Below, piece after piece: positions 5,014 through 24,185 of a DNA stretch of 32,887 bases. Every line of letters begins with the position of its first letter. The stretch's first letter is position 1. The translations under genes and the position numbers were made by a program. Under the pieces are notes generated by a model that saw only the letters and a list, made by a program, of their open reading frames with translations, was not told the origin of the DNA and did no database searches. Source of the stretch: an uncultured Verrucomicrobia subdivision 3 bacterium (GTDB lineage Bacteria; Verrucomicrobiota; Verrucomicrobiia; Limisphaerales; UBA11358); assembly GCA_903827955.1 (NCBI GenBank), contig CAIKKJ010000041.1, positions 1 to 32,887 on the forward strand, in the 5' to 3' direction.

Positions 5014-5088
5014 AATTAAGATGGGGACGAGGCGGGTTGCGCCAAAATTGATTCGCCCTGCGCGCCCGCTTTTCGCATATTGCGCCGA

Positions 5089-5970
5089 ATGAAATCCATG
5101 ACGGGTTACGGTCGCGGCGAGTGCGCGCAAGACGGCTTCAAGATCACGGTCGAGTTGAGCAGCGTCAACCGCAAGCAGGCCGAGGTCTCGGTCACGCTAC
5201 CTCGCGAATTGGACATGCTCGAAGCGCAGATCCGCGACGCCATCAACCGCGTCGTCGCGCGCGGCCGCGTGAACGTCCGCGTTTCGCTTCATGCCGCCGA
5301 GGGCAAAGAATCCGCCCGCAAACACATCAACCACGCGCTGGCCAAGGATTACGCGGCGGAATTCGCGCGGCTGGGCAAGGCGCTGAAAATTTCCGGCGCG
5401 GTCACGCTCGACCAGGTTTTGCGCGCACCGGGCGTTTTTCAAACCGACGAGCAACTGGCGGAGTCGGAAGATTTGTGGCCGGCGGTGGAGAAGGCGTTGA
5501 ACGCCGGTTTGTCCGCGCTGCTGAAAATGCGCGAACGCGAAGGCGCGCATCTGGCGAAGGATTTGTCCGCGCGCATCGGCGTGATGAGCGGCGCGGTCAG
5601 CAAAGTCCAGAAACAGTCGCCGCAGACGGCGGAGAATTACCGGCAGAATCTGCTGGCGCGCATCAAGGCGGCGGGGTTGGAAAATATCGCGCCGGATGAC
5701 GAACGCTTGTTGAAAGAAATTGTTTTGTTCGCCGACCGTTCGGACATCACGGAGGAACTGACCCGATTGCAAAGTCATTTCCAGCAGTTCGCGGACTGCG
5801 CGAAGTCGAAGGAGCCGGTCGGCCGCACATTGGATTTTCTCGCGCAGGAAATGAACCGCGAAATCAATACCATCGGCTCGAAGGCGAATGACGCCGTTAT
5901 CTCACGCGAGGTGGTAACGCTCAAGACAGAGCTTGAACGGTTCCGCGAGCAGGCGCAAAACGTGGAATAA
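5089..5970 (+). CDS. yicC: YicC/YloC family endoribonuclease
   Basis: A 293-residue protein beginning MKSMTGYGRGE, the family's characteristic N-terminus (MxxSMTGF/YxR). This fixes the start at the ATG at 5089 rather than the in-frame TTG at 5080. The C-terminal part carries the DUF1732 block: DERLLKEIVLFADRSDITEELTRL, then GRTLDFLAQEMNREINTIGSKAND, near residues 205-275. Proteins of this family are endoribonucleases active on RNA in vitro and tied to stationary-phase survival. It is followed by gmk after three bases, a gene order (yicC-gmk) conserved across many bacteria. It is the first gene of a plus-strand run of ten closely spaced genes. Confidence 0.95.
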   Translation: MKSMTGYGRGECAQDGFKITVELSSVNRKQAEVSVTLPRELDMLEAQIRDAINRVVARGRVNVRVSLHAAEGKESARKHINHALAKDYAAEFARLGKALKISGAVTLDQVLRAPGVFQTDEQLAESEDLWPAVEKALNAGLSALLKMREREGAHLAKDLSARIGVMSGAVSKVQKQSPQTAENYRQNLLARIKAAGLENIAPDDERLLKEIVLFADRSDITEELTRLQSHFQQFADCAKSKEPVGRTLDFLAQEMNREINTIGSKANDAVISREVVTLKTELERFREQAQNVE

Positions 5971-5973
5971 ATC

Positions 5974-6597
5974 ATGGCCGAAAAAAAACCAGCGCCGTTG
6001 TTAGTGTTGATTTCCGCACCGTCAGGCGCGGGCAAGACGACCTTGTGCGACGGCTTGCTGGTGGCGTGCCCGAGCATGACGCGCGCCGTGACTTGCACCA
6101 CGCGCGAACCGCGCAAGGGCGAAAAGGACGGCGAGGATTATTATTTTTTGAAGGCGGAAGATTTTCTCCGGCGCGTGCAGGCGGGAAATTTTCTCGAGCA
6201 CGCCACGGTCTACGGCAACAGCTATGGTTTGCTGAAATCGGAACTGCTCTCAAAACTGCGGGCGGGCAAAGACGTGTTGCTGAACGTGGACGTGCAAGGC
6301 GCGGCAACTATTCGCGCGGCGGCGGAAGAGGAGCCGGAATTGAAACGCGCGCTGGTCACGGTATTTCTCACCACGCCGTCGCTGGACGATTTGGAAACGC
6401 GGTTGAAAAAGCGCGGCGCAGACGACGCGGCGGTCATCAAGAAACGTCTCGCGGCGGCAAAACAGGAGGTCGCGCAGTGGAAAAATTTTGATTACCTCGT
6501 CATCAGCACGTCCAAGCAGGAAGATTTGCGGCGCACGTTGGCGGTGGTGGAATCGGAGAAGATGCGCGTGGCGCGGTCACACGCGCCGGAGTTTTGA
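5974..6597 (+). CDS. gmk: guanylate kinase
   Basis: A 207-residue enzyme that phosphorylates GMP to GDP with ATP in the cytoplasm. The P-loop SAPSGAGKTT is at about residues 14-23, followed by the GMP-binding region with TCTTREPRKGEKDGEDYYFL (about 41-60) and the EHATVYGNSYG segment (about 74-84), all standard for bacterial guanylate kinase. The length matches the family. It starts three bases after yicC. In many bacteria rpoZ follows gmk and then the coaBC gene; here the 34-nt gap to coaC has no room for rpoZ. Confidence 0.97.
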   Translation: MAEKKPAPLLVLISAPSGAGKTTLCDGLLVACPSMTRAVTCTTREPRKGEKDGEDYYFLKAEDFLRRVQAGNFLEHATVYGNSYGLLKSELLSKLRAGKDVLLNVDVQGAATIRAAAEEEPELKRALVTVFLTTPSLDDLETRLKKRGADDAAVIKKRLAAAKQEVAQWKNFDYLVISTSKQEDLRRTLAVVESEKMRVARSHAPEF

Positions 6598-6631: not shown

Positions 6632-7180
6632 ATGAGCGTTTCCAATAAAATCGTTCTCGGCGTGACTGGTTCTATCGCCGCGCACAAAGCGGCGGATCTC
6701 GCGTCGCTGCTCACGAAGGCTAAGTGCGATGTGCGCGTGGTAATGACGGCGGACGCGCAGCACTTCATCACGCCGTTGCCGTTCAAGACGCTCACGCGCA
6801 ATCCGGTGGTGACGAATCTCTACGACGAGGTCGAAGGCTGGCAGCCGACGCACATTTCGCTCGCGGACGAAGCCGACTTATTCATCATCGCGCCGGCGAC
6901 GGCAAATGTCATTGCGAAGCTGGCACACGGCATCACCGACGATGCACTGACGTGCATCGCGCTGGCACTAAATTCCAAGGCGAAAATTTTGATCGCGCCC
7001 GCAATGAACGGAAAAATGTGGCTGCACGCGGCCACGCAGGCCAACGTGGCGACGTTGAAAAAGCGCGGTGCGAAATTCATCGGGCCGGACGAGGGAATGT
7101 TATCGTGCGGTTACGAAGGCATCGGCCGTTTGTGGCCGGTCGCAAAGATTGCGGAGCACGTCTTGAAACAGTTGCGTTGA
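6632..7180 (+). CDS. coaC: phosphopantothenoylcysteine decarboxylase domain protein (CoaC-type flavoprotein)
   Basis: A 182-residue HFCD-family flavoprotein. It has the N-terminal VTGSIAAHKAADL flavin-binding segment (residues 10-22), the active-site histidine in THISL (H74), the PAMN substrate-binding motif (about 124-127) and the substrate-clamp cysteine in LSCGYEGIGR (C159). These residues define the decarboxylase that converts 4'-phosphopantothenoylcysteine to 4'-phosphopantetheine in CoA synthesis. The protein ends where the CoaC half of the common CoaBC fusion ends; the CoaB synthetase domain is absent and is not encoded nearby. A standalone CoaC with CoaB elsewhere is the simplest reading. 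The stop is four bases before the histidine kinase ATG. Confidence 0.88.
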   Translation: MSVSNKIVLGVTGSIAAHKAADLASLLTKAKCDVRVVMTADAQHFITPLPFKTLTRNPVVTNLYDEVEGWQPTHISLADEADLFIIAPATANVIAKLAHGITDDALTCIALALNSKAKILIAPAMNGKMWLHAATQANVATLKKRGAKFIGPDEGMLSCGYEGIGRLWPVAKIAEHVLKQLR

Positions 7181-7184
7181 TTGC

Positions 7185-8609
7185 ATGAAATCCCGGCGAC
7201 TCGAATGGCTGAAGCGGCTGCCGGCGCTGTTTGAGATTCCCGCGCCGGATCCGGATCGCGCCCGGCTGCGCATCGAGGTAATGGAGCGCAACACGATGCT
7301 GGCCATCAAGGCGGTGCTCGTAGGCATCGTTCTGTATTCCTTCAACTACCGGTCGCAATGGATGGCGCTCGCCTTGAATTCGCTCACCATTACGGTGGAG
7401 ACCGTGCAGCTGGTATTCTGGTTTTATATTTTGGCCAATGTTTTCCTGGCCATTCCGGTCATGGCCGGGCGGCGCGTGCCGATGGCGTTGCTGCAATGGA
7501 CGGTGGTGACCAGCGCGCTGACGGACGGCCTGTTGCTGACGGGAATGACCCTGATCACTGGCGGACTGGACAGCATCCTGTTCTGGCTGTTCATCGGACT
7601 GATCTTACGGAACAGCGTCAGCGTGCCGCCGGGTTTCTCGCAGTTGTTCCTGAACTTCGCCATCAGCCTGTGCTATGTGGTGGTGGCGGTGCTGGATCAC
7701 TCCATCACCGCGAGCCTGTCCGAGGAGGATTTGCGGGCGCTCAACTACACACCGCGCGATGAACTGGGCGAAGTTTTTTTCCTGCGGCTGCTGGTGCTGT
7801 GGCTGGTCACCATCACCAGCTACGGCGTGCAGGCGTTTTTGGAACGGCAGCGGCTCGCGATCGAGGAAGCCAGCGAGTTCGCCGCACGCGAAGGGCAGTT
7901 GCGCTCCGCCGGACGGCTGGCGGCGGAGTTCGCGCACCAGATCAAAAATCCGCTGGCGGTGATCAACAACGCCGCCCACTCGCTGGAACGTTCCGTGCGC
8001 GAGAATAAAAATTCCGCCGCCCAGCAGATTGAAATCATCCAAGAGGAAGTCGCGCGCGCCGACCGGGTCATCACGCAGATCATGGGCTACGCACAGTTGA
8101 GCGAAGGCCGCGTAGAAAAATTGGACGTCATCGCGAAAATTGAGAAGGCGGTCGCGCAGGTTTTCCCCGCCGCCGTGCCAACGGGTATTGACGTAAAAAC
8201 AAAATTATCCGGGCCGTTTCCCCCGTTGCTGATGCAGCGCGGGCACCTTTCAGAAACGCTCGTCAACCTGTTGCAAAATGCGCGTGAAGCCTTGGGCGAC
8301 AGCGGCACCGTTGTCATCACGGCCGAAACCCGGCGCGACCATGCCGTGGTGATTTCCGTGGCCGATGACGGCCCGGGGATTCCGCCGGAAAAACGCGAGC
8401 GCATCTTCGAGGCATATTTCACCACCAAGGAAAAAGGCACCGGCCTCGGGCTCGCCATCGTGAAACACAACGTGGAGCTTTACGGCGGCACGGTGCGTGT
8501 GGAATCGCAACCGGGAAATTCAAATCATGATAATTCAAATCTTGGAAAGGGTGCGAAATTCATCGTAACCTTCCCGGCAAAATCGCTGCCGCAACCGTTT
8601 GTGCAATGA
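7185..8609 (+). CDS. membrane sensor histidine kinase, NtrB/AtoS-like
   Basis: A 474-residue kinase. Residues about 35-215 contain five or six hydrophobic segments joined by short loops, so the sensor is probably the membrane domain itself and not a large periplasmic domain. The dimerisation/phosphoacceptor helix has AEFAHQIKNPL with H251 as the phosphorylated histidine. The ATPase domain has the N box (LLQNAREAL), G1 (DDGPGIP), F (FEAYFTTK) and G2 (GTGLGLAI). A 15-nt direct duplication adds the residues NSNHDNSNLG near the end of the ATPase domain. The gene overlaps the response regulator gene by four bases (ATGA), so the two are translated together and certainly form a pair. The signal is unknown. 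Confidence 0.93.
   Translation: MKSRRLEWLKRLPALFEIPAPDPDRARLRIEVMERNTMLAIKAVLVGIVLYSFNYRSQWMALALNSLTITVETVQLVFWFYILANVFLAIPVMAGRRVPMALLQWTVVTSALTDGLLLTGMTLITGGLDSILFWLFIGLILRNSVSVPPGFSQLFLNFAISLCYVVVAVLDHSITASLSEEDLRALNYTPRDELGEVFFLRLLVLWLVTITSYGVQAFLERQRLAIEEASEFAAREGQLRSAGRLAAEFAHQIKNPLAVINNAAHSLERSVRENKNSAAQQIEIIQEEVARADRVITQIMGYAQLSEGRVEKLDVIAKIEKAVAQVFPAAVPTGIDVKTKLSGPFPPLLMQRGHLSETLVNLLQNAREALGDSGTVVITAETRRDHAVVISVADDGPGIPPEKRERIFEAYFTTKEKGTGLGLAIVKHNVELYGGTVRVESQPGNSNHDNSNLGKGAKFIVTFPAKSLPQPFVQ
8517..8546 (+). repeat. 15-nt in-frame direct duplication inside the histidine kinase
   Basis: AATTCAAATCATGAT and AATTCAAATCTTGGA sit side by side; the first ten bases are identical. They encode NSNHD and NSNLG, between the conserved PG and KGAKF of the ATPase C-terminal strand, where relatives usually read directly PGKGA. 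The block is A+T-rich in a G+C-rich gene, which suggests insertion of a short repeat into a tolerated loop. Confidence 0.7.
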
Positions 8610-10012
8610 GCCTCCCGCTGCCACCCGTGCTCGTCGTGGATGACGAGAAAAACATGCGCCGTTCGCTCCAGATCATGCTGGGCGACGAAGGCTATGCCGT
8701 GCGCGCCGCCGAGTCCGCCGAAGAAGCGCTGCGGCTGCTCGCCACGGAGGATTTTTTCATGGTCATCACCGATGCCCGCCTCGGCGGCATGACGGGTTAT
8801 GAATTTCTCACCAAGCTAAAAAACCAGTGGCCGGAAATCCCGGCGCTGATGATCACCGCGTTTGCCACGCCCAAGCTCGCGGTCGAGGCCATCAAGGCCG
8901 GCGCGCTCGATTACCTCGCCAAGCCGTTCGAGCCAGAGGAATTGTTTCACGCCATCGCCCGCTGTGCGGAACGCTACCGCCTGTTGCGTGAAAACGCCGC
9001 ACTGCGTTCCCGCGCCGGCGAAATCATCGGCCTCGAGCAAATCGTCGGCGAGTCGGCAAAACTGCGCGAACTGCGCCAGCTCATCCGCACCGTGGCTGCG
9101 ACCGATGCGCGCGTTTTGGTGCTCGGCGAAAGTGGCACGGGCAAGGAGCTCGTCGCCGGCGCGCTGCACAGCTTGAGCAACCGGCGCAACGAGCATTACG
9201 TCCGCATCAACTGCGCGGCGATCCCCGAGGCGCTGCTGGAAAGTGAATTGTTCGGCCACGAAAAAGGTTCGTTCACCGGCGCGGTCAAACAAAAGCTCGG
9301 CCGTGTCGAAGAAGCCGACAAGGGCACGATTTTTCTCGATGAAATCGCGGACATGGGCAAGCCGCTTCAGGCGAAACTGCTGCGGTTTCTGGAGGACGGC
9401 ACGTTCACGCGCGTCGGCGGCACGGAAGAATTGCGCGTCAATGTGCGGCTCATCGCCGCGACGAACCGCGACATTGCGCAGGCGATTACAACGGGGGATT
9501 TTCGCGAAGATTTATTTCACCGCCTAAACGTGGTGCAGTTTAATTTGCCGCCGCTACGTGAACGCGGCGAAGACGTGCTGCTGCTGGCCGAGCATTTCCT
9601 GAAAAATTTCCGGGCGAAAATGAACAAGACCGTCAACGGCTTTACGCCGGCCGCGCGGCAAAAACTGCTCGCACAACGCTGGCCCGGCAATGTGCGCGAG
9701 CTCCGCAACGTTATCGAACGCGCGCTGATTTTGGAAACCAGCCGCGAAATTCAGCCGGCCGTCCTGCCGGATTTTGCCGTAGAATCCCGCCTGCAAAAAC
9801 CCACGTCCGCCGCCACGCCGGACGAATCGCTGGATGACGCCCTCGGGCGACACGAGCGCGAAATCATCCAGACCACGCTGGAGCAGAATAATTTCAGCCT
9901 GACACGCACCGCCGAAAGGCTTAAGCTGTCCCGTCATTCGCTGCGTTATCGGATGCAGCGGTTGAACCTGAAATTTGAAGGCGACCACGGTTCGCCGAGC
10001 GCAGCCGACTGA
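8606..10012 (+). CDS. sigma-54 dependent response regulator, NtrC family
   Basis: A 468-residue three-domain regulator. The receiver domain (residues 5-120) has the acidic pair DDE near 12-14, phosphoacceptor D56 (ITDARLGG) and the conserved lysine in LAKPFEP. The AAA+ domain (about 145-375) has Walker A GESGTGKE from residue 174, the sigma-54 contact loop GSFTGA from residue 221 in place of GAFTGA, Walker B TIFLDE, and the arginine-finger region LFHRLNV. The C-terminus is a Fis-type helix-turn-helix (FSLTRTAERLKLSRHSLRYRMQRL). It should activate sigma-54 promoters when phosphorylated by the upstream kinase. It is seven bases from the next gene, so the downstream lipid/glycan genes may be co-transcribed or controlled by it, but I found no convincing -24/-12 promoter in the window. 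Confidence 0.96.
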   Translation: MSLPLPPVLVVDDEKNMRRSLQIMLGDEGYAVRAAESAEEALRLLATEDFFMVITDARLGGMTGYEFLTKLKNQWPEIPALMITAFATPKLAVEAIKAGALDYLAKPFEPEELFHAIARCAERYRLLRENAALRSRAGEIIGLEQIVGESAKLRELRQLIRTVAATDARVLVLGESGTGKELVAGALHSLSNRRNEHYVRINCAAIPEALLESELFGHEKGSFTGAVKQKLGRVEEADKGTIFLDEIADMGKPLQAKLLRFLEDGTFTRVGGTEELRVNVRLIAATNRDIAQAITTGDFREDLFHRLNVVQFNLPPLRERGEDVLLLAEHFLKNFRAKMNKTVNGFTPAARQKLLAQRWPGNVRELRNVIERALILETSREIQPAVLPDFAVESRLQKPTSAATPDESLDDALGRHEREIIQTTLEQNNFSLTRTAERLKLSRHSLRYRMQRLNLKFEGDHGSPSAAD

Positions 10013-10019
10013 TTAAAAG

Positions 10020-10262
10020 ATGTTTCAATTACCAGCCAACGGGGCCAAGGCCGACTGGGTCATGTTCGCCATCATGGCCGTTGCCATCGGCGTGTCGGTA
10101 TGCGCCGTGACGCTCTGGATGGTTTTCTACCGGCCAAAATCTAAGAAGCGCCACCGCAAGCAACGCCGCAAACGCCATCAACGCCAGCACAATCCCACGC
10201 TCGCGGAAAAAGGCGGCTTGCCGCCCATGCGCGACCCCGACCAACCGCCGCGCGGCCCCTGA
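10020..10262 (+). CDS. small single-pass membrane protein with a strongly basic tail
   Basis: An 80-residue protein that I cannot assign to a named family. One hydrophobic segment (about residues 13-36) is followed by a dense Lys/Arg/His stretch (about 39-57), then a polar, proline-rich end (NPTLAEKGGLPPMRDPDQPPRGP). The charge pattern predicts N-out, C-in orientation with the basic tail in the cytoplasm, where it could touch acidic lipid or RNA. The gene is wedged seven bases after the response regulator and two bases before the squalene synthase gene, which supports it being real and co-expressed. A role in the neighbouring lipid pathway is possible but rests on location alone. Confidence 0.7.
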   Translation: MFQLPANGAKADWVMFAIMAVAIGVSVCAVTLWMVFYRPKSKKRHRKQRRKRHQRQHNPTLAEKGGLPPMRDPDQPPRGP

Positions 10263-10264
10263 CC

Positions 10265-11134
10265 ATGCAGCACAGCCACGCGCTCACCAAAAAAAGCGCC
10301 TCCAACCTCGCGCTGGCTTTCATCCTGTTGCCGCGCGAAAAACGCGATGCCATGTCCGCGCTCTACGCCTTCTGCCGCGCGGTGGATGATGTCGCCGATG
10401 AAGATTCCGTGCCGACGGAAAAACGCCGCGCACAGCTTGCCGCCTGGCGCGCGGACATCCGGCGCGCCTGCGAAAACAAACCTCCGCAGTTCGTCCTCAA
10501 CCAGGAATTCGCCCCGGTCATCCAAAAATTTAAACTGCCGTTCGCGCTATTTGACGAACTCATCCAGGGCTGCGAAATGGACCTGGAAAAATTACGCTAC
10601 GACAATTTTGACGAGCTGGAACTATATTGTCACCGTGTCGCCTCCGTGGTTGGCCTGTTGAGCATCGAGATCTTCGGCTACAAAAATCCCGCATGCCGCG
10701 ATTACGCCGTCCAACTCGGCCAGGCGTTGCAACTCACGAATATTTTGCGCGACGTGAAGAACGACGCCGCGCGCGGACGGATTTATCTGCCGCTGAGCGA
10801 GCTGAAAAAATTCGGCGTCACCGAAGCGGAGATTTTGGACGGGAAATTTTCGGAACGCTATCAGGCACTCGCCCAAAGCATCGCCGCCCGCACGAAGAAC
10901 TTTTATTCGCGCGCGCAAAAAACCTTGCCGCCGGCTGACCGCCAGGCCATGGTCGCCGCCGAGCTGATGGGCAGCGTCTATTGGGCATTACTGCAAAAAC
11001 TGGAACGCGGCCGCTTCGATGTCTTCGGCGCGCAGCCGTTGAAATTGTCCAAGCCGCACAAGCTCGCACTGATCTTCAAATCCTGGCTGCGCCATGCCGC
11101 CGGCGCCACTTCGCCCAGCTATGGCCAGCCCTGA
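10265..11134 (+). CDS. squalene/phytoene synthase family protein (HpnC/HpnD-like)
   Basis: A 289-residue all-helical trans-isoprenyl diphosphate synthase, head-to-head type. The first aspartate-rich motif is DDVADED from D41 after LYAFCRAV, and the second is DVKND (D163, D167) within NILRDVKNDAARGRIYLP, the Mg-diphosphate binding sites of the family. Such enzymes join two prenyl diphosphates to presqualene diphosphate, squalene or phytoene. The sequence ALYAFCRAVDDVAD is closest in style to HpnD (presqualene diphosphate synthase) of the bacterial HpnCDE route, but HpnC or a C30/C40 carotenoid enzyme cannot be excluded. No second synthase, HpnE or squalene-hopene cyclase is in the window. Its 3' end overlaps the deacetylase gene. 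Confidence 0.9.
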   Translation: MQHSHALTKKSASNLALAFILLPREKRDAMSALYAFCRAVDDVADEDSVPTEKRRAQLAAWRADIRRACENKPPQFVLNQEFAPVIQKFKLPFALFDELIQGCEMDLEKLRYDNFDELELYCHRVASVVGLLSIEIFGYKNPACRDYAVQLGQALQLTNILRDVKNDAARGRIYLPLSELKKFGVTEAEILDGKFSERYQALAQSIAARTKNFYSRAQKTLPPADRQAMVAAELMGSVYWALLQKLERGRFDVFGAQPLKLSKPHKLALIFKSWLRHAAGATSPSYGQP

Positions 11135-11951
11135 AACGCGCCGACTCATCGTCAATGCGGACGACTTCGGCCTGTCATCTTCCGTCAACGCGGCCGTCAT
11201 CCGCGCGCACCGCGACGGCATTTTGACGACGGCCAGCCTGATGGTGAATGAGCCGGGCTTTGATGAAGCCGTGCGGCTCGCGCAGGAAAACCCCCAACTG
11301 GGCGTCGGATTGCATCTGACTTTTTTGATGGGGCACGCCGCATTGCCGCCGGAAAAGATTCCCGGTCTCGTCAATGCGCGCGGCGAATTCAGCAATTCAC
11401 CCGTCGGCGTCGGGATGAATTATTTTTTCAAACGCCATTTGCGCGAACAACTGCGCGCGGAAATCCACGCGCAGTTTGAGAAATTTCACGCGACCGGCCT
11501 GACGCTCGACCACGTCAACGGCCACCTGCACCTGCACCTGCATCCGACCATCTTCAAAATTCTCATGGCCGACGCGGACAAACTCCGCATTACGCAGCTG
11601 CGGCTCACGCGCGACTGCCGGGCACGCAGCCGCCGGCTGTCGCGCGGAAACCTATTTTACAAGGTCTCGCACGCGGCCATCTTTGACTTTCTTTCCCGAC
11701 GCGCCAAAAAAGTTTTGAGGGCAAAAAAAATCCGCCACGCACAAATCACCTTTGGCTTGCTGCAGGATTCGCGCGTGGATGAGGATTATGTTTTGCAGCT
11801 GCTGCCGGAGTTGCCGGCCGGCGATTCGGAGCTTTACTCGCATCCGTCGCTCGACAAGTTTAAGCATGAGTTCGATGCTCTCGTCAGCCCGCGCGTAAAG
11901 CTGGCGGTTGAAAAACTCGGCATCCAGTTGATCCGCTACCAGGATTTGTGA
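11121..11951 (+). CDS. ChbG/HpnK (YdjC-like) family sugar deacetylase
   Basis: A 276-residue protein starting at ATG 11121 (MASPETRR); an earlier in-frame ATG at 11094 would add nine residues and a larger overlap. The metal site is visible as NADDFG (D14, D15) at the N-terminus and the histidine-rich GLTLDHVNGHLHLHLHP in the middle, plus GVGLHLTF. ChbG removes an acetyl group from chitooligosaccharides, while HpnK deacetylates N-acetylglucosaminyl-bacteriohopanetetrol. The position directly after a squalene synthase gene, overlapping it by 14 bases, favours an HpnK-like lipid role. It is followed after one base by a small transporter and then a glycosyltransferase. The exact substrate is inferred, not shown. 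Confidence 0.87.
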   Translation: MASPETRRLIVNADDFGLSSSVNAAVIRAHRDGILTTASLMVNEPGFDEAVRLAQENPQLGVGLHLTFLMGHAALPPEKIPGLVNARGEFSNSPVGVGMNYFFKRHLREQLRAEIHAQFEKFHATGLTLDHVNGHLHLHLHPTIFKILMADADKLRITQLRLTRDCRARSRRLSRGNLFYKVSHAAIFDFLSRRAKKVLRAKKIRHAQITFGLLQDSRVDEDYVLQLLPELPAGDSELYSHPSLDKFKHEFDALVSPRVKLAVEKLGIQLIRYQDL

Positions 11952-11952
11952 T

Positions 11953-12408
11953 ATGGCAAAAATATTGATCGTTCTTTTCATCGCCTTCGCCTTCGAGGCG
12001 TTCGGCGTCATCACGCTCAAGCAGGGCATCAACGTCATCGGCGCGCGTTACACCGAACGCCAGACAGCCGGCGTGGCGACGTGGAAAAACGTGCTTACGC
12101 TTGTCGGCAACTGGTTCACGAACAAAAATGTTTTGCTCGGCCTGCTGCTGGAAACGATTTTTTTCATCCTGCTGCAATACCTGCTCGGCCAGCGCGACGT
12201 GAGTTTTGTCTGGCCGCTGACGGCGGTCAGTTTTGTGATGACCACGCTGGCGGCGCAATTCATTTTGCACGAACGCGTGGATGCCGTGCGCTGGGGCGGC
12301 GTGACGCTCATCGTGCTCGGCGCGATACTCATCAGCTACGGCGAGCACAACAAGGAAAAGCCGGTGCCGCCGGCGCCAAACCTTTCCGACCGACCGGCCG
12401 CGCCGTAA
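11953..12408 (+). CDS. small EamA/DMT superfamily membrane protein, possible lipid-linked sugar flippase
   Basis: A 151-residue protein with four predicted helices (about 3-22, 55-80, 85-105, 112-130), the half-size DMT layout seen in small multidrug resistance proteins and in ArnE/ArnF, which flip undecaprenyl-phosphate aminoarabinose. The C-terminal pair reads SFVWPLTAVSFVMTTLAAQFILHERV then WGGVTLIVLGAILISYG, a typical EamA ending, followed by a short charged proline-rich tail. It starts one base after the deacetylase stop. In this context, next to a deacetylase that would expose an amino sugar and a glycosyltransferase, an ArnE/F-like flippase for the glycolipid is a reasonable inference. 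It may need a partner to make a four-plus-four dimer. Confidence 0.8.
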   Translation: MAKILIVLFIAFAFEAFGVITLKQGINVIGARYTERQTAGVATWKNVLTLVGNWFTNKNVLLGLLLETIFFILLQYLLGQRDVSFVWPLTAVSFVMTTLAAQFILHERVDAVRWGGVTLIVLGAILISYGEHNKEKPVPPAPNLSDRPAAP

Positions 12409-12453
12409 ATTTTGCGCCGGGGTTTTTCCATCAATAAGACTGAACCTGCCGCC

Positions 12454-13605
12454 ATGATCACTGCCACCGCACCGCGCGTCGTCCATGTTTTTCCGAACAG
12501 CGCGCGGCTGTCCTGCGGGCCGTGCAACGCGATCATGGCGTTCATGGAATGCCAGTTGCAGCAAGGGCTGGAAGTCCAGGCGCTGTCGCCCGCCGACCCG
12601 CACATCGCCGCCGAACGCCGGCAACCCATTGAACATCTGCCAATCCAGGAATTTGATCTGGCCACGGAAGATTTCTGCGCCCGGGCGCTGAAGCTGGCGG
12701 AAGCTCCGCGCACGGTCTTTCACTTTCACGGCATCGAGCCGTGGCTCGACACGCTGGGACGCGCGTTGAAAAAAAATTCCACGCCGCAAGTTTTCACCTC
12801 GCACGGTCAGTTGCATTTCAACGGCGGCTGGCACGCGCTGAAAAAATTCACATTTCTGAATTGTTTCAGCGGCTTCATCCGCCGCATGGACGGACTGCAT
12901 TTTTTGACACGGCACGAGCAGCAACGCAGCCGGTTCATCCTGCCCGGCCTGGCCGCAACCATTTTTGTGCAGCCGAACCTCGTGCGGTTGCCGGCCGAGA
13001 CAGGCATCGTCCCCGCCGCCCGCGCGGCGCTGGGCATCCCGGCGGAGGCATTTGTATTTGCGTATCTCGGACGGCTGGACGTGAACACCAAGGGTCTGGA
13101 TTTTCTCGTGCCGGCGTTCGCGGAAATTTCGCGCACGGCAGATGCGCGGCTGGTGCTCATCGGCCCGGACTTTGCCGGCGGCCGTGAATTGCTGGAGCAG
13201 CTCGCCAAAAAACTCGGCTGCGCGGATAAAATCATTTTCGCCGGCCCGCAGGTTGGCGCGGTGAAATGGGGCTTTTTGAAAATGGCCGATGCGTTCGTCT
13301 CGCCGTCGCGCTGGGAGGCGTGCAGCATCGCGCAGGCGGAGGCCATCGGGCTGGGGCTGCCGACGATTGTCTCCACGGAGATCAACCTCGCCCCGGAAAT
13401 GGTGAAGCGTGGCGCGGCGCTGGCCGCGCCGCTGGAAGTGTCCGCGCTGGCCAGCGAGATGCGGCGGCTGATGCAAGATGTCGCGCTGCGAGAATCGCTC
13501 GCAACGGCGGGGCGGAAATGGGTGGACGCGGAATTTTCTTTTGCGAACGCGGGGCCGCGCTTCACGGAATTTTATCGCTCGGTGCTGGCAGGTGCTTCGC
13601 GGTAA
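12454..13605 (+). CDS. glycosyltransferase, GT4-type
   Basis: A 383-residue GT-B glycosyltransferase. The ATG at 12454 is preferred over an in-frame TTG at 12412 because the conserved start RVVHVFPNSARLSCGP follows it. The C-terminal half has the hallmarks of GT4: FAYLGRLDVNTKGLDFL, the nucleotide-sugar binding part, and PSRWEACSIAQAEAIGLGLP with the EX7E-type glutamates near residues 288-296. It lies 45 bases after the transporter and ends the long plus-strand gene run, so it probably adds the sugar to the lipid made by the upstream genes. Its last 44 bases overlap the end of the convergent GT9 gene. Confidence 0.9.
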   Translation: MITATAPRVVHVFPNSARLSCGPCNAIMAFMECQLQQGLEVQALSPADPHIAAERRQPIEHLPIQEFDLATEDFCARALKLAEAPRTVFHFHGIEPWLDTLGRALKKNSTPQVFTSHGQLHFNGGWHALKKFTFLNCFSGFIRRMDGLHFLTRHEQQRSRFILPGLAATIFVQPNLVRLPAETGIVPAARAALGIPAEAFVFAYLGRLDVNTKGLDFLVPAFAEISRTADARLVLIGPDFAGGRELLEQLAKKLGCADKIIFAGPQVGAVKWGFLKMADAFVSPSRWEACSIAQAEAIGLGLPTIVSTEINLAPEMVKRGAALAAPLEVSALASEMRRLMQDVALRESLATAGRKWVDAEFSFANAGPRFTEFYRSVLAGASR

Positions 13606-14554
13606 ACAATTCGACGCGCGGCCAGACTTCCGCCGCCGTCACGTCGTGCAGGCAGAACGGTTTTTCGTAGCGGCAATAATCCGAGCACGGCTTATAAGGG
13701 CAGCCTTTGCCTTCAAAAATTTCCGCCTGCGGATGCAGCGGCACAAACCATTCGTGCATGGACGGGCCGTAGAGCGTGAACGTGGGCACGCCGCAGATCG
13801 CCGCGAGATGGCCGGGGCCGGAGCAGTTGCCGATGAAAATGCCGGCGCGGTCAATGTGCGCGAGCAGTTCCGGCACGGTGCGCGGGCAGACGGGATTTTC
13901 GCCGTGGGCCTGCCACCAGGCGAGCTGGTCGGGGTCGCAGGCGAGCTGCACGGTGATTTTTTTTTCGCGCAGGTTCGCGGCGAGGCGCTGGAAATTTTCC
14001 AGCGGCCAGATGCGCGCCGGCAGCCGCGCGCCGGAATGGACGAGCGCGATGGCCTGGTGCGCCCGCGGCATCAGCGGCAATTCGGTGCGGGCGGGTAGTT
14101 CCAGACCGAGGGCGCGACCGGCGGTGCGCCAGAATTCGTAGCGGTGCGCCAGCGGATCGGGACGCGGCAGTTCGGTGGTAAGGTAACGGTGGCTTTTGAG
14201 GCGCGAAAAGCCGAGGCGTTGCGCCGCCCCGAAAAATTTCAGCGCAAAATGGTCGCGCGGATCCCAGCGGGCAGAGACGGCATAGTCAAATTTTTCCGTG
14301 ACGAGCCGGCGGCGCAGGCGGAACATTTCCCGCCACGGCCAGTGCCAGAATTTATATTTGCCGTGAAAGGCCGTCCACGGCGCGGTGAACACCTGCACGC
14401 GGACGTCCGGCCAGAGGCGCGGGCGTAATTCTTCGGCGAAGGGTTTGGCGACGAGCGTGACTTCGAATTTTTCCGTGGCCGCGCGGAGGAAGGGCGTGGC
14501 GATGACGAGGTCGCCGAGGCCCCACAGTTCCAGAACTAGCAGCCGGGGTTTCAC
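13562..14554 (-). CDS. glycosyltransferase family 9 (heptosyltransferase-like)
   Basis: A 330-residue GT-B protein from a GTG at 14554. The N-terminus LELWGLGDLVIATPFLRA is the GT9 signature (GxGD...P), and the donor domain has FIGNCSGPGHLAAICGVPTFTLYGP at about 238-262, matching the heptosyltransferase ADP-sugar site. A cysteine-rich stretch CPYKPCSDYCRYEKPFC lies near residues 285-301. Family members add heptose or related sugars to lipopolysaccharide core in the cytoplasm. It follows the Wzy/WaaL-like gene by six bases and is the last gene of this minus-strand block. Its stop lies inside the convergent glycosyltransferase gene, a 44-bp tail-to-tail overlap. A different donor sugar is possible. 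Confidence 0.9.
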   Translation of the reverse strand: MKPRLLVLELWGLGDLVIATPFLRAATEKFEVTLVAKPFAEELRPRLWPDVRVQVFTAPWTAFHGKYKFWHWPWREMFRLRRRLVTEKFDYAVSARWDPRDHFALKFFGAAQRLGFSRLKSHRYLTTELPRPDPLAHRYEFWRTAGRALGLELPARTELPLMPRAHQAIALVHSGARLPARIWPLENFQRLAANLREKKITVQLACDPDQLAWWQAHGENPVCPRTVPELLAHIDRAGIFIGNCSGPGHLAAICGVPTFTLYGPSMHEWFVPLHPQAEIFEGKGCPYKPCSDYCRYEKPFCLHDVTAAEVWPRVELFTAKHLPAPSDKIP

Positions 14555-14560
14555 GCGCGG

Positions 14561-16123
14561 TCAGACGGGCTGGATGTGCGGCTGATCCGGCCGGGACGGC
14601 AGGCGACGGATCATCTGGCTGGCAACGGCTTTGACCGACGGCGCGGAGCGGATGCCCCAATTGAATGCCACGCTGAAGCCCGCGAGCTTGGCGAATTCGC
14701 CGATGTCATCCGAGTAGCTGCCGAACAGGAAGAAGTAGCCGATGAAACGGTTCAAGGACATGACGAACAGCAGGGCGTTGACGGTTTTTATCTCCGGATC
14801 GCCGTAGCGGTAGTTGCGATACAAAATAAAAATCGCCGCGAGCGCGACCCACAGATAGCTGATCATCCCCCACAGGCCGAACGGCATCAAGGTTGAGAGC
14901 AGACCATTATGATAATCCATGGAGACGGCCAGACCTTCCTGACTGTGGTCGAAGCCGGACGCGGTGCCTTCAAATGCGCCGCCGCCCATCATGCTAAAAT
15001 CATCCGCATGCAGGGCATAGCCTTTGCCCAGCAGCAGGTATTGCGGAACTTTTGGCCAGACATCATTCCAGATTTGTTCACGCCATTTTTTGCTGCCATC
15101 GGCATCCATCACGGCGGCGGAGTCCAGATGCAGCGGCAAAAAGGAGATGGACCGCTGAAAGGTAAAGGGCAGCTTGCTCGCAAACGGAATCAGCACGGCG
15201 AGCGCCATCGTCCCGAACAACGCGAACACCAGCAACAACCGGGTGCGGTGCAGCCCTTCCATGAAAAATAGCATCAACACAGTTTCGGTATAGCTGATCA
15301 CGGTCAGACGGAAACCACCGACCATCGTCAGCATCATCGCCATCGCAAAAACACCAAACCGGACCGGGTGCTGGCCGGAAAAAATTCCCCGCAGGCCATG
15401 CCGGGCCAGCAGAAAATTCGCCACGCAACCGGCGGTGGTGGCCATCGCGCCCAGGCGGGAAATGCCGAAGGAGAAATCTCCCGCCGCCGATGACACGGAG
15501 GAAGGCGGAAACAGCAGGTTGATGTAGTTCAACGGGGCGGGCAGCACCGGAAACAAGTCGCTGAAGAAGGCCGGCGTTCCCGCCAGAAACAAAAACACCA
15601 CATACAACGTCCGTTTTTCCTTCGGAATCCGCCGGCTGATCAAGGCGAAAAATGTGGCGATACCGACAAACATCGCGAGATATTTTTTCCCGCCACCAAC
15701 ATCGCCACCAAGTGCTTTCAGGCCGATGCCTCCGGTCAGCTCCGCCGTAAGTAGCGCCATGGCTGCCGTGTAAAACATCGCCCAAGTCATCACCGAGGCC
15801 TTGAGGAAATGCCGTTCGCTGTTGAGCGCCCGCTCAATCAGGGCAATGATGAAGCACAAAATCACCACCACTTGCGCCAGCGGCGGATTGCCCTTGAGAA
15901 AAAAACAATACATCGGGCAGCCCAGTCCGAACACCATGAGCGGATAATGCCATTTGATGAAAATGGGCGAGGCCAGCACCGCAATGACGAGACCGACCAC
16001 GAACAGGTTGGAGTAATCCGGGCGATTGCCCACTTCCGTCATGATATAGCCCATCATGATAGCCAGCGGAATGCACACCGCGTAGGTGATTAGCATCCGG
16101 ATGGCTTGGGCGGGGTTCGTCAT
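14561..16123 (-). CDS. O-antigen polymerase/ligase-like polytopic membrane protein
   Basis: A 520-residue protein with about ten to twelve hydrophobic helices and one large hydrophilic region at about 330-415, the arrangement of Wzy polymerases and WaaL O-antigen ligases (PF04932-like). The loop contains LLLGKGYALHADDF and later FDHSQEGLAVSMDYHNGLLSTLMPFG; the GKGY...YHNGLL pattern, with His and Asn, is seen in the active loop of this superfamily. It should polymerise or transfer lipid-linked glycan on the outer side of the inner membrane. Whether it is a polymerase, ligase or exopolysaccharide protein cannot be settled. Its base composition is a little less G+C-rich than neighbouring genes. 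It is followed by the GT9 gene after six bases. Confidence 0.8.
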   Translation of the reverse strand: MTNPAQAIRMLITYAVCIPLAIMMGYIMTEVGNRPDYSNLFVVGLVIAVLASPIFIKWHYPLMVFGLGCPMYCFFLKGNPPLAQVVVILCFIIALIERALNSERHFLKASVMTWAMFYTAAMALLTAELTGGIGLKALGGDVGGGKKYLAMFVGIATFFALISRRIPKEKRTLYVVFLFLAGTPAFFSDLFPVLPAPLNYINLLFPPSSVSSAAGDFSFGISRLGAMATTAGCVANFLLARHGLRGIFSGQHPVRFGVFAMAMMLTMVGGFRLTVISYTETVLMLFFMEGLHRTRLLLVFALFGTMALAVLIPFASKLPFTFQRSISFLPLHLDSAAVMDADGSKKWREQIWNDVWPKVPQYLLLGKGYALHADDFSMMGGGAFEGTASGFDHSQEGLAVSMDYHNGLLSTLMPFGLWGMISYLWVALAAIFILYRNYRYGDPEIKTVNALLFVMSLNRFIGYFFLFGSYSDDIGEFAKLAGFSVAFNWGIRSAPSVKAVASQMIRRLPSRPDQPHIQPV

Positions 16124-16180
16124 ATTTGCGACATCAAAAATTGAACACCGTAAAAATACGCCATTGCCCGCCTAAACCGC

Positions 16181-16208
16181 AACCGGAAACCAGAAACCGG
16201 AAACTTGA
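16181..16208. repeat. two-unit 14-bp repeat (AACCGGAAAC family)
   Basis: AACCGGAAACCAGA and AACCGGAAACTTGA lie next to each other in the 159-base gap between the acyltransferase and Wzy/WaaL-like genes. The same 14-bp unit, in close variants, occurs three times at 21037-21078. The rest of the gap (16124-16282) shows nothing else I can identify. Confidence 0.65.
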
Positions 16209-16282
16209 GGCCAGAAATAAAGCTCCCGTTCACTTGCCGATTACTGTCACGAAATCACTCGTGGGTTTTTAGGTTTCCATCT

Positions 16283-17482
16283 TCAGGTCTTTTTTAGGCT
16301 ATCGCGGACGCGGTTCAAAATTGGCAACGAGAAATACCGGTAGACGAGGACCGACAAACCAAAAGTCACCGCCAGCGGCACCACCGTCACCCATGCATAC
16401 GCCAGCACGCTGCCGTGCGATTTTCCGGCATGATCGAGAAACAGCCGGACGACCGGCCCGTGAAACAAAAACCATTCAAAGCTCACGATGCCCACAAACC
16501 GCAGCCACTTCATCGCGAGGAACCGCGCACCCAAGCCCGCCGGATTGAACACGAAAAACAGCATCAACATTGCCGCCACCGCCGGCAGCAGATGGGAGAT
16601 TTCAATGCTCCACTGCGTTTTATGCGCCTTGATGTCGTATTGATCCTGCCACAAGCCCCAATAGACCAGCGTCACCACCATCAGCCCCACTCCAGCGTAG
16701 CCCAGCCCGCCGAGCGCACGCAAATTTTCCAAGGCAACTTTCTTCGTCAACGGCACGAACACCGACGCAAATAGAACGCCCCACGCAAAGTAATCCAACT
16801 GGCAGGGAAACCGCGTCAGCTTGTGCAGGATTTCCGCCTGTAACGGATCCGTATAATCCGGCAGCACATGCACGTTCTCCGGCCAGACGAGTTGACGCGC
16901 CAGCAACGGCACGAGGAACAGCACACCGAAAATCACCGCCCCGGTGCGTTCCACCGACAGGCCGCGCGTCAGCCAGAACAACAACGGCAGCAGCAAATAG
17001 AAATGTGATTCCACCAGCAAACTCCAGTAAGACAGATTGAACGGCACGGGCACCGGCGTAAAATTCGCCAGCCCCGTAGCCCACTTCCACGCCGATTCGA
17101 AATACGCTACGTCATGAAATTGCAGCCAGTAAAAAATCAGGAATACGACCACCGAGAGATAGAATGGCGGTAGAATTTTGGCGAGCCGTCGCCGCGCGTA
17201 GCCGCGCTGATACCAAAACTGCGGATCCGTCGCGCGTTTCTGAAAAAACGGATAGGAAATGAGAAACCCCGACAGCACGAAAAATATTGGCACTCCCATC
17301 CAGCCCGACTGGATCACACCCCAGTTGAACATCCGCACCAGCCAGCCGTGGTCGGGATTGACGTAAAGTGTGTGGAACGATACGACCAGCAGAATCGCCA
17401 CGCCGCGCAAGCCGTCCAGCGCATCAAAGTGGCTGCCGGTGCTGGCAACAATTTCCCAGCGTTGAAGTTTGGGCGCGTTCAT
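16283..17482 (-). CDS. acyltransferase family 3 (OafA/YrhL-like) membrane protein
   Basis: A 399-residue membrane protein with about ten helices. The N-terminal FDALDGLRGVAILLVVSFHTLYV is the family signature, with the catalytic histidine in SFHT (about residue 37), followed by GWMGVPIFFVLSGFLISYPF. The domain runs to the C-terminus (FEWFLFHGPVVRLFL); there is no fused SGNH esterase domain, unlike longer OafA proteins. Members move acetyl or other acyl groups across the inner membrane onto O-antigen, Nod factors or peptidoglycan. Here it sits between a methyltransferase and a Wzy/WaaL-like gene on the same strand, so O-acetylation of a surface glycan is the likely role. The FkbM gene ends 27 bases upstream. 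Confidence 0.93.
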   Translation of the reverse strand: MNAPKLQRWEIVASTGSHFDALDGLRGVAILLVVSFHTLYVNPDHGWLVRMFNWGVIQSGWMGVPIFFVLSGFLISYPFFQKRATDPQFWYQRGYARRRLAKILPPFYLSVVVFLIFYWLQFHDVAYFESAWKWATGLANFTPVPVPFNLSYWSLLVESHFYLLLPLLFWLTRGLSVERTGAVIFGVLFLVPLLARQLVWPENVHVLPDYTDPLQAEILHKLTRFPCQLDYFAWGVLFASVFVPLTKKVALENLRALGGLGYAGVGLMVVTLVYWGLWQDQYDIKAHKTQWSIEISHLLPAVAAMLMLFFVFNPAGLGARFLAMKWLRFVGIVSFEWFLFHGPVVRLFLDHAGKSHGSVLAYAWVTVVPLAVTFGLSVLVYRYFSLPILNRVRDSLKKT

Positions 17483-17509
17483 GACATTGGCTTCGCCGGC
17501 GGCCGATTT

Positions 17510-18481
17510 TCAATTCGTTTGCAACAACTGTTCCACGTCGCTGCTGGCAAGGTAGCCGACTTCTGACGTGATTTTTTCGCGCGGAACAAGCAGGAAGTCC
17601 TTCAACTGGCGGGGCCGGGAAAAATCCGCCGCCGTCATCCGGAAAAACCCGTCCAGCGTGATGGCAAACGGCACATAGCCCAGCTCATCCACCACCGCAA
17701 GCGTTTCGCGGTTGTTGTTGCGGAGAGTTTTGGTGGCGGAATCAAAGTCCTCACACGGCAAAATTTCACAGACCATCCACGGGCGGCGCGCGGCGATGAA
17801 TTTTTTCGCGCCCCGCAGCACGGCGGCCTCAAAATTTTCCACGTCAATCTTCAGCGCGCACGGCCCGTCCGGCAGCGGCTGCCCGGCCACAAATGAATCC
17901 AAGGTCACGCATTGAATCTCCACGGTCTCGACTTTTTCGTGATGCGCCTGCCAGGAATCCGCGCGCAGCGTGGCGGACTGTTCCACCTCCACCGCGCCGG
18001 TGAAGACGGGGATGAAAATTTTTTGCACGCCTTCACGATCGCTCAAGGCGAGGCGGAAAACATTTTTCTCGGGCAGCCCGTTAGCCCGGTGGAACGCACA
18101 GTTTTTTTCCCAGATGGCCGGCACCGGCTCGAACGCATACGTCACCGTCTCCTTGCAAGCCACGCCGGCATAGACCGCATACAAACCCATGTTGGAGCCG
18201 ATGTCGAAAAAGACCCGCGCCCGCTGCGCCAGCAGGGCAATCGCCCGGCTCGTCGCCTGTTCGTAAGCTTCCGGCCCGTCCCAAAACAGGGTGGTGGAAT
18301 AGACCAGCGCCACGTCTTCGGGGAAATTTAAATCAGCATCCAAAAATCGGATCCGGCCGCCGCTGATGACCAGCCGCCGGGCGATACGGTCGGTGAATCG
18401 GGCATAACCGCGCCGGATTTTTTGGATCAATGGAAAGAACATCCGCACCGGCGAACTGGGTTTGGCGACGATATTCTTCAT
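17510..18481 (-). CDS. FkbM family SAM-dependent methyltransferase
   Basis: A 323-residue class I methyltransferase. The SAM-binding motif I is FFDIGSNMGLYAVYAG at about residues 92-107, followed by TYAFEPVPAIWEKN, and the diagnostic FkbM segment CALKIDVENFEAAVLRGAKK lies near 208-228. FkbM enzymes O-methylate hydroxyls of polyketides, sugars and glycans. The N-terminus is basic (about residues 18-40) with no signal peptide. It heads a minus-strand block with the acyltransferase, Wzy/WaaL-like and GT9 genes, so the substrate is probably a sugar of the surface polymer. It is divergent from a GT4 gene across 98 bases. Confidence 0.92.
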   Translation of the reverse strand: MKNIVAKPSSPVRMFFPLIQKIRRGYARFTDRIARRLVISGGRIRFLDADLNFPEDVALVYSTTLFWDGPEAYEQATSRAIALLAQRARVFFDIGSNMGLYAVYAGVACKETVTYAFEPVPAIWEKNCAFHRANGLPEKNVFRLALSDREGVQKIFIPVFTGAVEVEQSATLRADSWQAHHEKVETVEIQCVTLDSFVAGQPLPDGPCALKIDVENFEAAVLRGAKKFIAARRPWMVCEILPCEDFDSATKTLRNNNRETLAVVDELGYVPFAITLDGFFRMTAADFSRPRQLKDFLLVPREKITSEVGYLASSDVEQLLQTN

Positions 18482-18579
18482 GATGGCAACGGCCAGAATT
18501 TGCGGATTTGCCGGGCCAATCTCAAATCAATTCCTACGCATTTGCCATTTACGACCAGAAATCGCACAATCCGCGCACT
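18482..18579. promoter_or_regulatory. divergent start region of the FkbM and GT4 genes
   Basis: This 98-base stretch lies between a minus-strand ATG at 18481 and the preferred plus-strand GTG at 18580, and is more A+T-rich than either gene, so it probably holds both promoters. No clear -35/-10 pair was recognised. The plus-strand frame is open back to a TTG at 18508, so part of it could be coding. Confidence 0.35.
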
Positions 18580-21050: not shown

Positions 21051-21078
21051 AACTGGAGACCTGAAACCGGAAATCCTA
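21037..21078 (+). repeat. three-unit 14-bp tandem repeat overlapping a gene end
   Basis: Units AACTGGAGACCTGA at 21037-21050 and again at 21051-21064 are identical; the third at 21065-21078 is AACCGGAAATCCTA. The first unit supplies the stop codon of the GT4 gene. The unit is the same family as the pair at 16181-16208 (11 of 14 bases match the first of those units). Confidence 0.75.
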
Positions 21079-21107
21079 AAACGCGGCGCGAAAAAGTTTC
21101 AGGTCTC
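21056..21107. terminator. long inverted repeat between convergent genes, probable bidirectional terminator
   Basis: GAGACCTGAAAC (21056-21067) pairs perfectly with GTTTCAGGTCTC (21096-21107), twelve base pairs over a 28-nt loop that itself contains GCGGCGCG. Further ACCTGA copies in reverse orientation continue to about 21128. It sits between the GT4 gene ending at 21050 and the GT9 gene ending at 21134. There is no strong T run directly after the stem in either direction, so it may work as a weak terminator or an mRNA end-protecting structure. Confidence 0.5.
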
Positions 21108-21133
21108 AGGTCTCAAATTTCAGGTTTCGTCTT

Positions 21134-22087: not shown

Positions 22088-22129
22088 GCGGGGAGATTCC
22101 TGTTTTGACCGGAAAAATTCAACGCAATT

Positions 22130-22795: not shown

Positions 22796-22801
22796 GTTGG
22801 T

Positions 22802-23392: not shown

Positions 23393-23398
23393 GCGAAA

Positions 23399-24133: not shown

Positions 24134-24185
24134 AATCGAATCACACAAATACTAAATCTGGCTGAATGGGTTTCGAGATAAAAAT

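Follow-up and report, generated by a model that had tools for sequence, protein, structure and literature searches.

Hopanoids are lipids of bacteria that resemble sterols. How does one with a polar head group cross the inner membrane? According to the excerpt of PMC12583986 consulted, HpnN (and perhaps also HpnM) carries hopanoids to the outer membrane, and the inner-membrane crossing of polar-headed hopanoids is not assigned. The question is raised by a locus in a stretch of 32,887 nucleotides (hereafter the window) from an uncultured Verrucomicrobia subdivision 3 bacterium (contig CAIKKJ010000041.1 of assembly GCA_903827955.1), which is one entire contig of a 213-contig, 3.86 Mb draft genome with a completeness of 95%. 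Here, the genes for a presqualene diphosphate synthase (HpnD) and a hopanoid aminosugar deacetylase (HpnK) are followed by that of a half-size membrane protein of the drug/metabolite transporter (DMT) type. A hopanoid operon with a DMT partner is a new arrangement, built from enzymes that are themselves ordinary members of known families. On balance, we lean towards a hopanoid operon with dispersed partner genes, in which the DMT protein would act as a flippase resembling small multidrug resistance (SMR) transporters, serve extended or aminosugar hopanoids, and stand in for the hopanoid-linked membrane protein HpnL. The genes in question are the following:

10020..10262, + strand: sm80, 80 aa, companion of HpnD (no match in Pfam or NCBIfam)
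10265..11134, + strand: HpnD, presqualene diphosphate synthase, 289 aa (TIGR03465; PF00494)
11121..11951, + strand: HpnK, hopanoid aminosugar deacetylase of the YdjC family, 276 aa from the ATG at 11121 (TIGR03473)
11953..12408, + strand: half-size DMT/SMR-like membrane protein, candidate hopanoid flippase, 151 aa (EamA just under cut-off; structure model; downstream of HpnK in three phyla)
12454..13605, + strand: GT4 glycosyltransferase, 383 aa from the ATG at 12454, outside the conserved unit (PF00534)

All five open reading frames lie on the + strand with spacings of 2, -14, 1 and 45 bases, exactly as in an earlier note on this DNA, which had read the synthase as a squalene/phytoene synthase family member and the deacetylase as HpnK-type. 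Both assignments hold. The synthase matches PF00494 and passes the HpnD equivalog (295.5 bits against a cut-off of 278.6), the deacetylase passes the HpnK model (281.5 bits against 232.6), and residues D14, D15, H65, H131 and H135 of the latter are invariant among 16 aligned homologues. By family membership, the two proteins are HpnD and HpnK.

The DMT gene and its hopanoid partners

How firmly is the DMT gene tied to HpnK? The named HpnK loci, being the best 80 matches listed, include 52 of verrucomicrobial type, 26 with a divergent HpnK and two truncated verrucomicrobial ones (L210 and L214); named relatives with HpnK include metagenome-assembled genomes (MAGs) of Verrucomicrobia subdivision 3, Limisphaerales and Pedosphaera. 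Among these listed matches, a DMT gene lies at most 600 bases downstream of HpnK and on the same strand in 48 of the 52 verrucomicrobial-type loci, 46 of them found by script and two (L157 and L196, in which the first base of DMT coincides with the final one of the HpnK match) read by eye. The four loci without it are L178, which has 216 bases left to the contig end, L167, L190 and L200; L210 and L214, outside the 52, also hold it. With DMT again on the same strand and no farther from HpnK than these 600 bases, the order HpnJ-HpnK-DMT is found in four Geobacter-type loci (L203, L204, L205 and L207, from Geobacter and Trichlorobacter), and a Nitrospirae locus (L216) reads HpnJ-HpnK-DMT followed by squalene-hopene cyclase (SHC). 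Within the 26 divergent-HpnK loci, DMT occurs in 5 of the 11 with another hopanoid-type gene versus none of the 15 without (Fisher p 0.007; both fractions were counted by eye, the weak HpnJ-profile match of 96 bits in L223 was not taken as context, and L213 is a Verrucomicrobia MAG). Judged by gene order, the DMT-HpnK link, to which the earlier note had drawn attention, is real, conserved and recurrent in three phyla.

Conservation extends to the operon. Of 58 relatives, 33 share the co-oriented series HpnD-HpnK-DMT, mostly preceded by sm80, and the arrangement is therefore more than chance; a lack of this order in every relative had been set beforehand as an outcome that would speak against a hopanoid module. 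Where the next gene after DMT is readable in relatives, it is often a convergent HpnG-like gene, and the run HpnD-HpnK-DMT-HpnG extends to SHC in four loci (L165, L170, L179 and L180). Genomes G012 and G026 hold a further DMT copy of the same family next to an HpnI-like gene, and G034 holds one next to an HpnG-like gene. In G001 and G016, the neighbour of an HpnI-like gene is a half-size DMT of more distant kinship. The copies in G045, G032 and G031 come without a hopanoid-profile match in the fetched stretches.

The distribution across 59 genomes points in the same direction. HpnK and HpnI-like genes are both present in 39, both missing in 14 and found singly in 6; the corresponding figures are 38, 12 and 9 for DMT and HpnK, and 39, 9 and 11 for DMT and HpnI-like genes. 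Presence was scored at no less than 260 bits for HpnK, 200 bits for HpnI-like genes (G045 from two partial matches) and 150 bits for DMT, a level that the distant DMT proteins of G001 and G016 do not reach, so that they are scored as absent. When each family is represented by a single genome (24 in all), DMT and HpnK are both present in 15, both missing in 5 and single in 4 (p 0.007).

Beside this stands an observation on two genomes without the usual HpnK and HpnI, G002 and G017. In each (L257 and L258, respectively), a YdjC deacetylase (94-97 bits with the HpnK profile) and an HpnI-like glycosyltransferase (74-80 bits) adjoin HpnJ (808-812 bits), and the pair is possibly an alternative aminosugar set.

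Hopanoid core genes and the squalene step

Where is the rest of the pathway? The earlier note had found no SHC, HpnE, HpnH or HpnG gene adjacent, which is correct for the window and, at the level of the genome, for HpnE only, no frame of which reaches its cut-off. Its suggestion of a self-contained module fares less well, with SHC, HpnH, HpnJ, HpnI-like and HpnG-like genes located elsewhere in the genome. The search it had proposed, for shc, hpnH, hpnG and hpnE among others, returned the first two over their cut-offs: SHC reaches 679 bits with TIGR01507 (cut-off 431.1), and HpnH (354.9 bits, cut-off 225.05) adjoins HpnJ (736.9 bits, cut-off 577.6). An HpnI-like match (282.7 bits, under the cut-off of 310) runs to a contig end, and a separate 44-bit piece starts another contig; only 5 of the 59 genomes pass the HpnI cut-off at all. 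An HpnG-like phosphorylase on another contig scores 101.4 bits with TIGR03468, under the cut-off of 187.1, which is passed by none of the 59 genomes; HpnG is still its best-matching NCBIfam family, and it passes Pfam PNP_UDP_1 (71 bits against 25.1). SHC is over the Pfam cut-off in 55 of the 59 genomes, some of these matches being weak or partial.

Because SHC, HpnH, HpnJ, HpnI-like and HpnG-like genes are present elsewhere in the genome, the operon product is most likely a hopanoid of the aminosugar or cyclitol-ether type, and not a carotenoid glycoside. Of the two options left by the earlier note, a core encoded elsewhere or a product other than a hopanoid, it is thus the former that is favoured. 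The enzymes are those of the known hpn pathway (hpnD, shc, hpnH, hpnG, hpnI, hpnK, hpnJ), in which, according to the excerpt of PMC12583986, HpnI yields bacteriohopanetetrol N-acetylglucosamine, HpnK its deacetylated form and HpnJ the cyclitol ether. Unlike there, the genes are dispersed, a single operon combines HpnD, HpnK and DMT with sm80 and a pair of two-component genes, the HpnG-like and most HpnI-like proteins stay below their cut-offs, and no HpnE reaches its cut-off in the 59 genomes.

The last difference concerns the supply of squalene. In this genome, the best HpnE-like frame is a protoporphyrinogen oxidase. A second protein of the SQS_PSY family is encoded on another contig (G000:C210, L002:1405-2469); it scores about equally weakly as HpnD (94.6 bits), HpnC (82.8) and squalene synthase (63.3), and its solved-structure relatives are weak. 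The HpnC cut-off of 250.45 is passed neither by this protein nor by that of the window (187.3 bits), the two being all that PF00494 found in a draft 95% complete and without a dedicated HpnC search. Two or more SQS_PSY matches occur in 50 of the 59 genomes, here as HpnD plus a divergent second protein. As far as profile scores tell, the squalene route is something other than the full HpnCDE set. By the excerpt of PMC9543262 available, neutrophilic Verrucomicrobia have a squalene synthase gene and acidophilic ones HpnCDE.

Two readings would take the operon out of hopanoid metabolism. That the synthase feeds a C30 carotenoid glycoside is very improbable in our estimation: the best-scoring solved structure for the window HpnD is CrtM, and with HpnE lacking at cut-off the second SQS_PSY gene could make squalene, but the protein passes the HpnD cut-off, the genome holds SHC, HpnH and HpnJ, HpnD is contiguous with HpnG-like and SHC genes in the four loci named above, and the best HpnE-like frame is the protoporphyrinogen oxidase (no search was aimed at CrtN). 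Even harder to credit is a ChbG-type chitooligosaccharide enzyme in an operon unrelated to hopanoids. The YdjC family is common to both kinds of deacetylase, and the solved structures closest to the window protein are YdjC/chitooligosaccharide deacetylases of a general kind; against this, the chitin disaccharide deacetylase model gives the window protein only 129.9 bits (cut-off 227) versus 281.5 for HpnK, HpnK co-occurs with HpnI-like genes, and in G048 an HpnI-like gene adjoins it. We therefore rejected the ChbG identity. A deacetylase in a ChbG clade together with a synthase in an unrelated carotenoid clade was what the earlier note had named as refuting its proposal, and the profile scores for HpnK and HpnD place neither protein there.

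A candidate flippase and HpnL

What kind of protein is the DMT partner? Its EamA score of 26.7 bits falls just under the Pfam cut-off of 28.2, a threshold exceeded by the DMT proteins of L203 and L216, and it misses the ArnE cut-off (32 versus 92 bits), as does a Geobacter-type member (ArnE 42.9/92, ArnF 32/99). An AlphaFold2 model built from 49 sequences is all-helical (pLDDT 90.3, pTM 0.69) and structurally closest to EmrE and Gdx-Clo, with a Foldseek probability of 1.00 but an E-value of 0.07. A profile search against solved structures retrieved no SMR chain, only weak SLC35 and NIPA stretches. E15 in the first transmembrane helix (TM1) and W87, positions that we take, by eye, to be those of the central Glu and the binding-site Trp of EmrE, are present in all 44 verrucomicrobial rows of the alignment and in 0 of the 5 Geobacter-type and Nitrospirae rows; the latter five carry Asp or Glu four residues after the E15 position. 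The HpnI-side copy in G012 has Gln at E15, and Asn occupies the second site in the distant paralogues. The available part of PMC9574504 describes a central Glu and a binding-site Trp as marks of SMR transporters, and ArnE/F-type lipid SMRs as often having Asn in place of that Glu and transporting non-cationic substrates. Like ArnE and ArnF, the DMT protein is a half-size DMT/SMR-like protein from an operon probably concerned with the aminosugar decoration of a lipid; unlike that gene pair, it is encoded by a single gene at the window locus, scores below the ArnE cut-off and keeps the TM1 Glu where lipid SMRs often have Asn (PMC9574504, same excerpt). From these residues we infer that the acid retained in TM1 would suit a positively charged head group, for example that of a glucosaminyl hopanoid.

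In open PMC literature, where part of the matches were judged by title and the start of the abstract, we found no paper assigning the DMT protein a role; the word EamA is absent from PMC7231039. A predicted hopanoid cluster with squalene-hopene cyclase in Leptospirillum ferriphilum (Nitrospirae) lists an EamA-like transporter, to which the accessible portion of PMC12654047 gives no function and no HpnK link.

As an observation apart, DMT proteins at the same place in the operon fall into two classes, 64-89% or 40-48% identical to that of the window, beside HpnD and HpnK identities of about 65-86% within the same genus. In the DMT tree, the class to which the window protein belongs falls together with the HpnI-side copies of G012 and G026. 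This suggests, at the level of sequence, that DMT may have been replaced in place within the operon.

A step-by-step scheme can be proposed. HpnD would condense farnesyl diphosphate to presqualene diphosphate, towards squalene, and SHC, HpnH and the HpnG-like enzyme would lead to an extended hopanoid, to which HpnI would attach N-acetylglucosamine (GlcNAc); HpnK would then take off the acetyl group and HpnJ would form the cyclitol ether. The DMT protein, as a putative dimer of four-helix subunits, would carry the hopanoid with its polar head across the inner membrane, from the inner leaflet to the outer one; elsewhere among hopanoid producers, HpnL may perform this task. That DMT flips lipids, what it flips, that it dimerizes and that it is equivalent to HpnL are all our inference. 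With its position beside HpnK in three phyla, the DMT protein is a candidate for a flippase step not previously known from the hopanoid pathway.

Why HpnL? Its function is stated as not established in the excerpt of PMC12583986. In L215, L225 and L226 (Acidithiobacillus, Proteobacteria), HpnL lies within reach of HpnK and there is no DMT; it was therefore searched in 28 genomes of our choosing. HpnL is over its cut-off in none of the 19 with DMT versus 5 of the 9 others (p 0.0013), so that in the genomes tested the two exclude each other. The five are G006, G064 (L215), G065 (L225), G066 (L226) and G067 (L200), none with DMT within the range checked, which was the whole genome for G006 alone. 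Among 14 control genomes, the cut-off is passed by none. Among Verrucomicrobia of known status, any HpnL match at all is found in 3 of 4 DMT-less genomes versus 1 of 14 with DMT (p 0.019); in the DMT-less G048 (145 bits) and G055 (162 bits) such matches are under the cut-off. Like DMT, HpnL (TIGR03476) is a hopanoid-linked membrane protein near HpnK; unlike DMT, it has a 318-position model, belongs to the LPG_synthase_TM family (PF03706) and shows the opposite distribution in the genomes tested. The G006 protein also passes a flippase-like domain model. Taken at face value, these profiles suggest that DMT and HpnL could be two unrelated flippases for one step.

A number of observations weigh against DMT as a hopanoid flippase that stands in for HpnL. 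The co-occurrence genomes share ancestry, their lists were compiled by hand and the thresholds were chosen by the analyst; the HpnI-like counts include mostly matches below the HpnI cut-off (5 of 59 pass). An independent-pair test on the HpnD tree, which covers 48 of the 59 genomes and is poorly resolved (4 of 45 inner branches starred), yields two supported pairs and decides nothing. At the chosen thresholds, DMT is kept without HpnK and HpnI in G002, G007, G029, G044 and G058, although G002 has the divergent HpnK/HpnI-like pair; an amine therefore cannot be the sole reason for DMT. Conversely, G048 has HpnK and an HpnI-like gene and no DMT, as does G010, its HpnK being cut by the contig end, and G009 has an HpnI-like gene without DMT. 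The Geobacter-type and Nitrospirae DMT proteins are only 22-28% identical to that of the window and may have been recruited independently; a DMT tree rooted on a single paralogue family is compatible with both a shared and a separate origin. The match of the model to EmrE (Z 11.1, rmsd 3.5, 109 residues) has a Z within the chance range of helical bundles. As to HpnL, the 28 genomes were hand-picked, and DMT absence in G064-G068 was checked only near HpnK (at most 5 kb). Weak HpnL-like matches occur in two DMT genomes (G056, 88 bits; G062, 45 bits), the DMT-less G018 and G068 are without any HpnL match, and, at the cut-off, Verrucomicrobia of known status give 1 of 4 DMT-less versus 0 of 14 DMT genomes (p 0.22).

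How, then, do the explanations compare? On the strictest reading, DMT would be an inner-membrane flippase reserved for extended and aminosugar hopanoids, interchangeable with the unrelated HpnL, and this we hold tentatively, at somewhat less than an even chance. If true, it would explain HpnL and place an inner-membrane step ahead of HpnN on the route of hopanoids to the outer membrane. DMT might instead flip or export extended hopanoids in general, that is bacteriohopanetetrol and its derivatives, and not the aminosugar forms specifically. The five genomes with DMT and without HpnK and HpnI, all but G044 with HpnH over the cut-off, would fit such a role, as would the fact that DMT is linked not only to HpnK and HpnI-like genes but also to HpnD and HpnG-like ones; the strong co-occurrence of DMT with HpnK and a conserved membrane acid that would suit a cation argue the other way, and we consider this alternative unlikely, if a serious one. 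Less probable still is a mere operon companion for another substrate (a nucleotide sugar, polyprenyl-phosphate sugar, drug or polyamine), unrelated to hopanoid flipping. The DMT/EamA proteins form a diverse group, the closest named families (ArnE and phn_DUF6) are matched below their cut-offs and the copies in G045, G032 and G031 show no hopanoid-profile match within the stretches retrieved, but such a companion is at odds with the repeated linkage to HpnK, HpnI-like, HpnG-like and HpnD genes across three phyla and with the absence of DMT beside the HpnK-like genes of the 15 divergent loci without hopanoid context.

Upstream genes, sm80 and the neighbouring glycan cluster

The earlier note had drawn a five-gene unit from sm80 to GT4. 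Its borders have shifted at both ends: the same-strand run already starts at yicC (5080), with gaps of 3, 34, 4, -4 and 7 bases from yicC through sm80, and GT4 drops out. The upstream genes are:

5080..5970, + strand: YicC/YloC family endoribonuclease, upstream operon partner (TIGR00255, 247.8 bits against a cut-off of 167.5; conserved order)
5974..6597, + strand: guanylate kinase, gmk (TIGR03263, 183.8 bits against a cut-off of 160.45)
6632..7180, + strand: CoaC-type flavoprotein, phosphopantothenoylcysteine decarboxylase-like (Pfam Flavoprotein; TIGR00521 and TIGR02113 under cut-offs)
7185..8609, + strand: sensor histidine kinase (HisKA, HATPase_c)
8606..10012, + strand: NtrC-type sigma-54 response regulator (Response_reg, Sigma54_activat, HTH_8)

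This order, from yicC, gmk and the coaC-type gene through the histidine kinase and sigma-54 regulator to sm80, recurs among relatives. In many of them, the two regulatory genes (7185-10012) separate the coaC-type gene from sm80-HpnD, but L119 and L121 lack the pair, which may control the hopanoid genes. In a scan for promoters and terminators nothing stood out, the counts being close to those of shuffles.

In 44 of the 46 named loci listed, sm80 is directly upstream of HpnD. The protein has a single hydrophobic stretch, a basic tail and the C-terminal motif NPTLAxxGGLPPxR, the latter taken from an alignment-free listing. It stays with HpnD where HpnK sits on another contig (L128) or is absent (L135). 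Our guess would be a membrane anchor or regulator of HpnD.

As for GT4, tblastn (E 1e-4) found no homologue in 53 related loci, some of which end soon after DMT, and we rejected it as a module member: it forms the edge of a glycan cluster, adjoining genes for GT9, an O-antigen ligase-like protein, an acyltransferase, FkbM, a methyltransferase, further GT4 enzymes and a Wzt-like ATPase. The GlcNAc transferase expected of the pathway is HpnI, not GT4. The glycan cluster, at 13562-25457, fills the place where many relatives have the HpnG-like gene.

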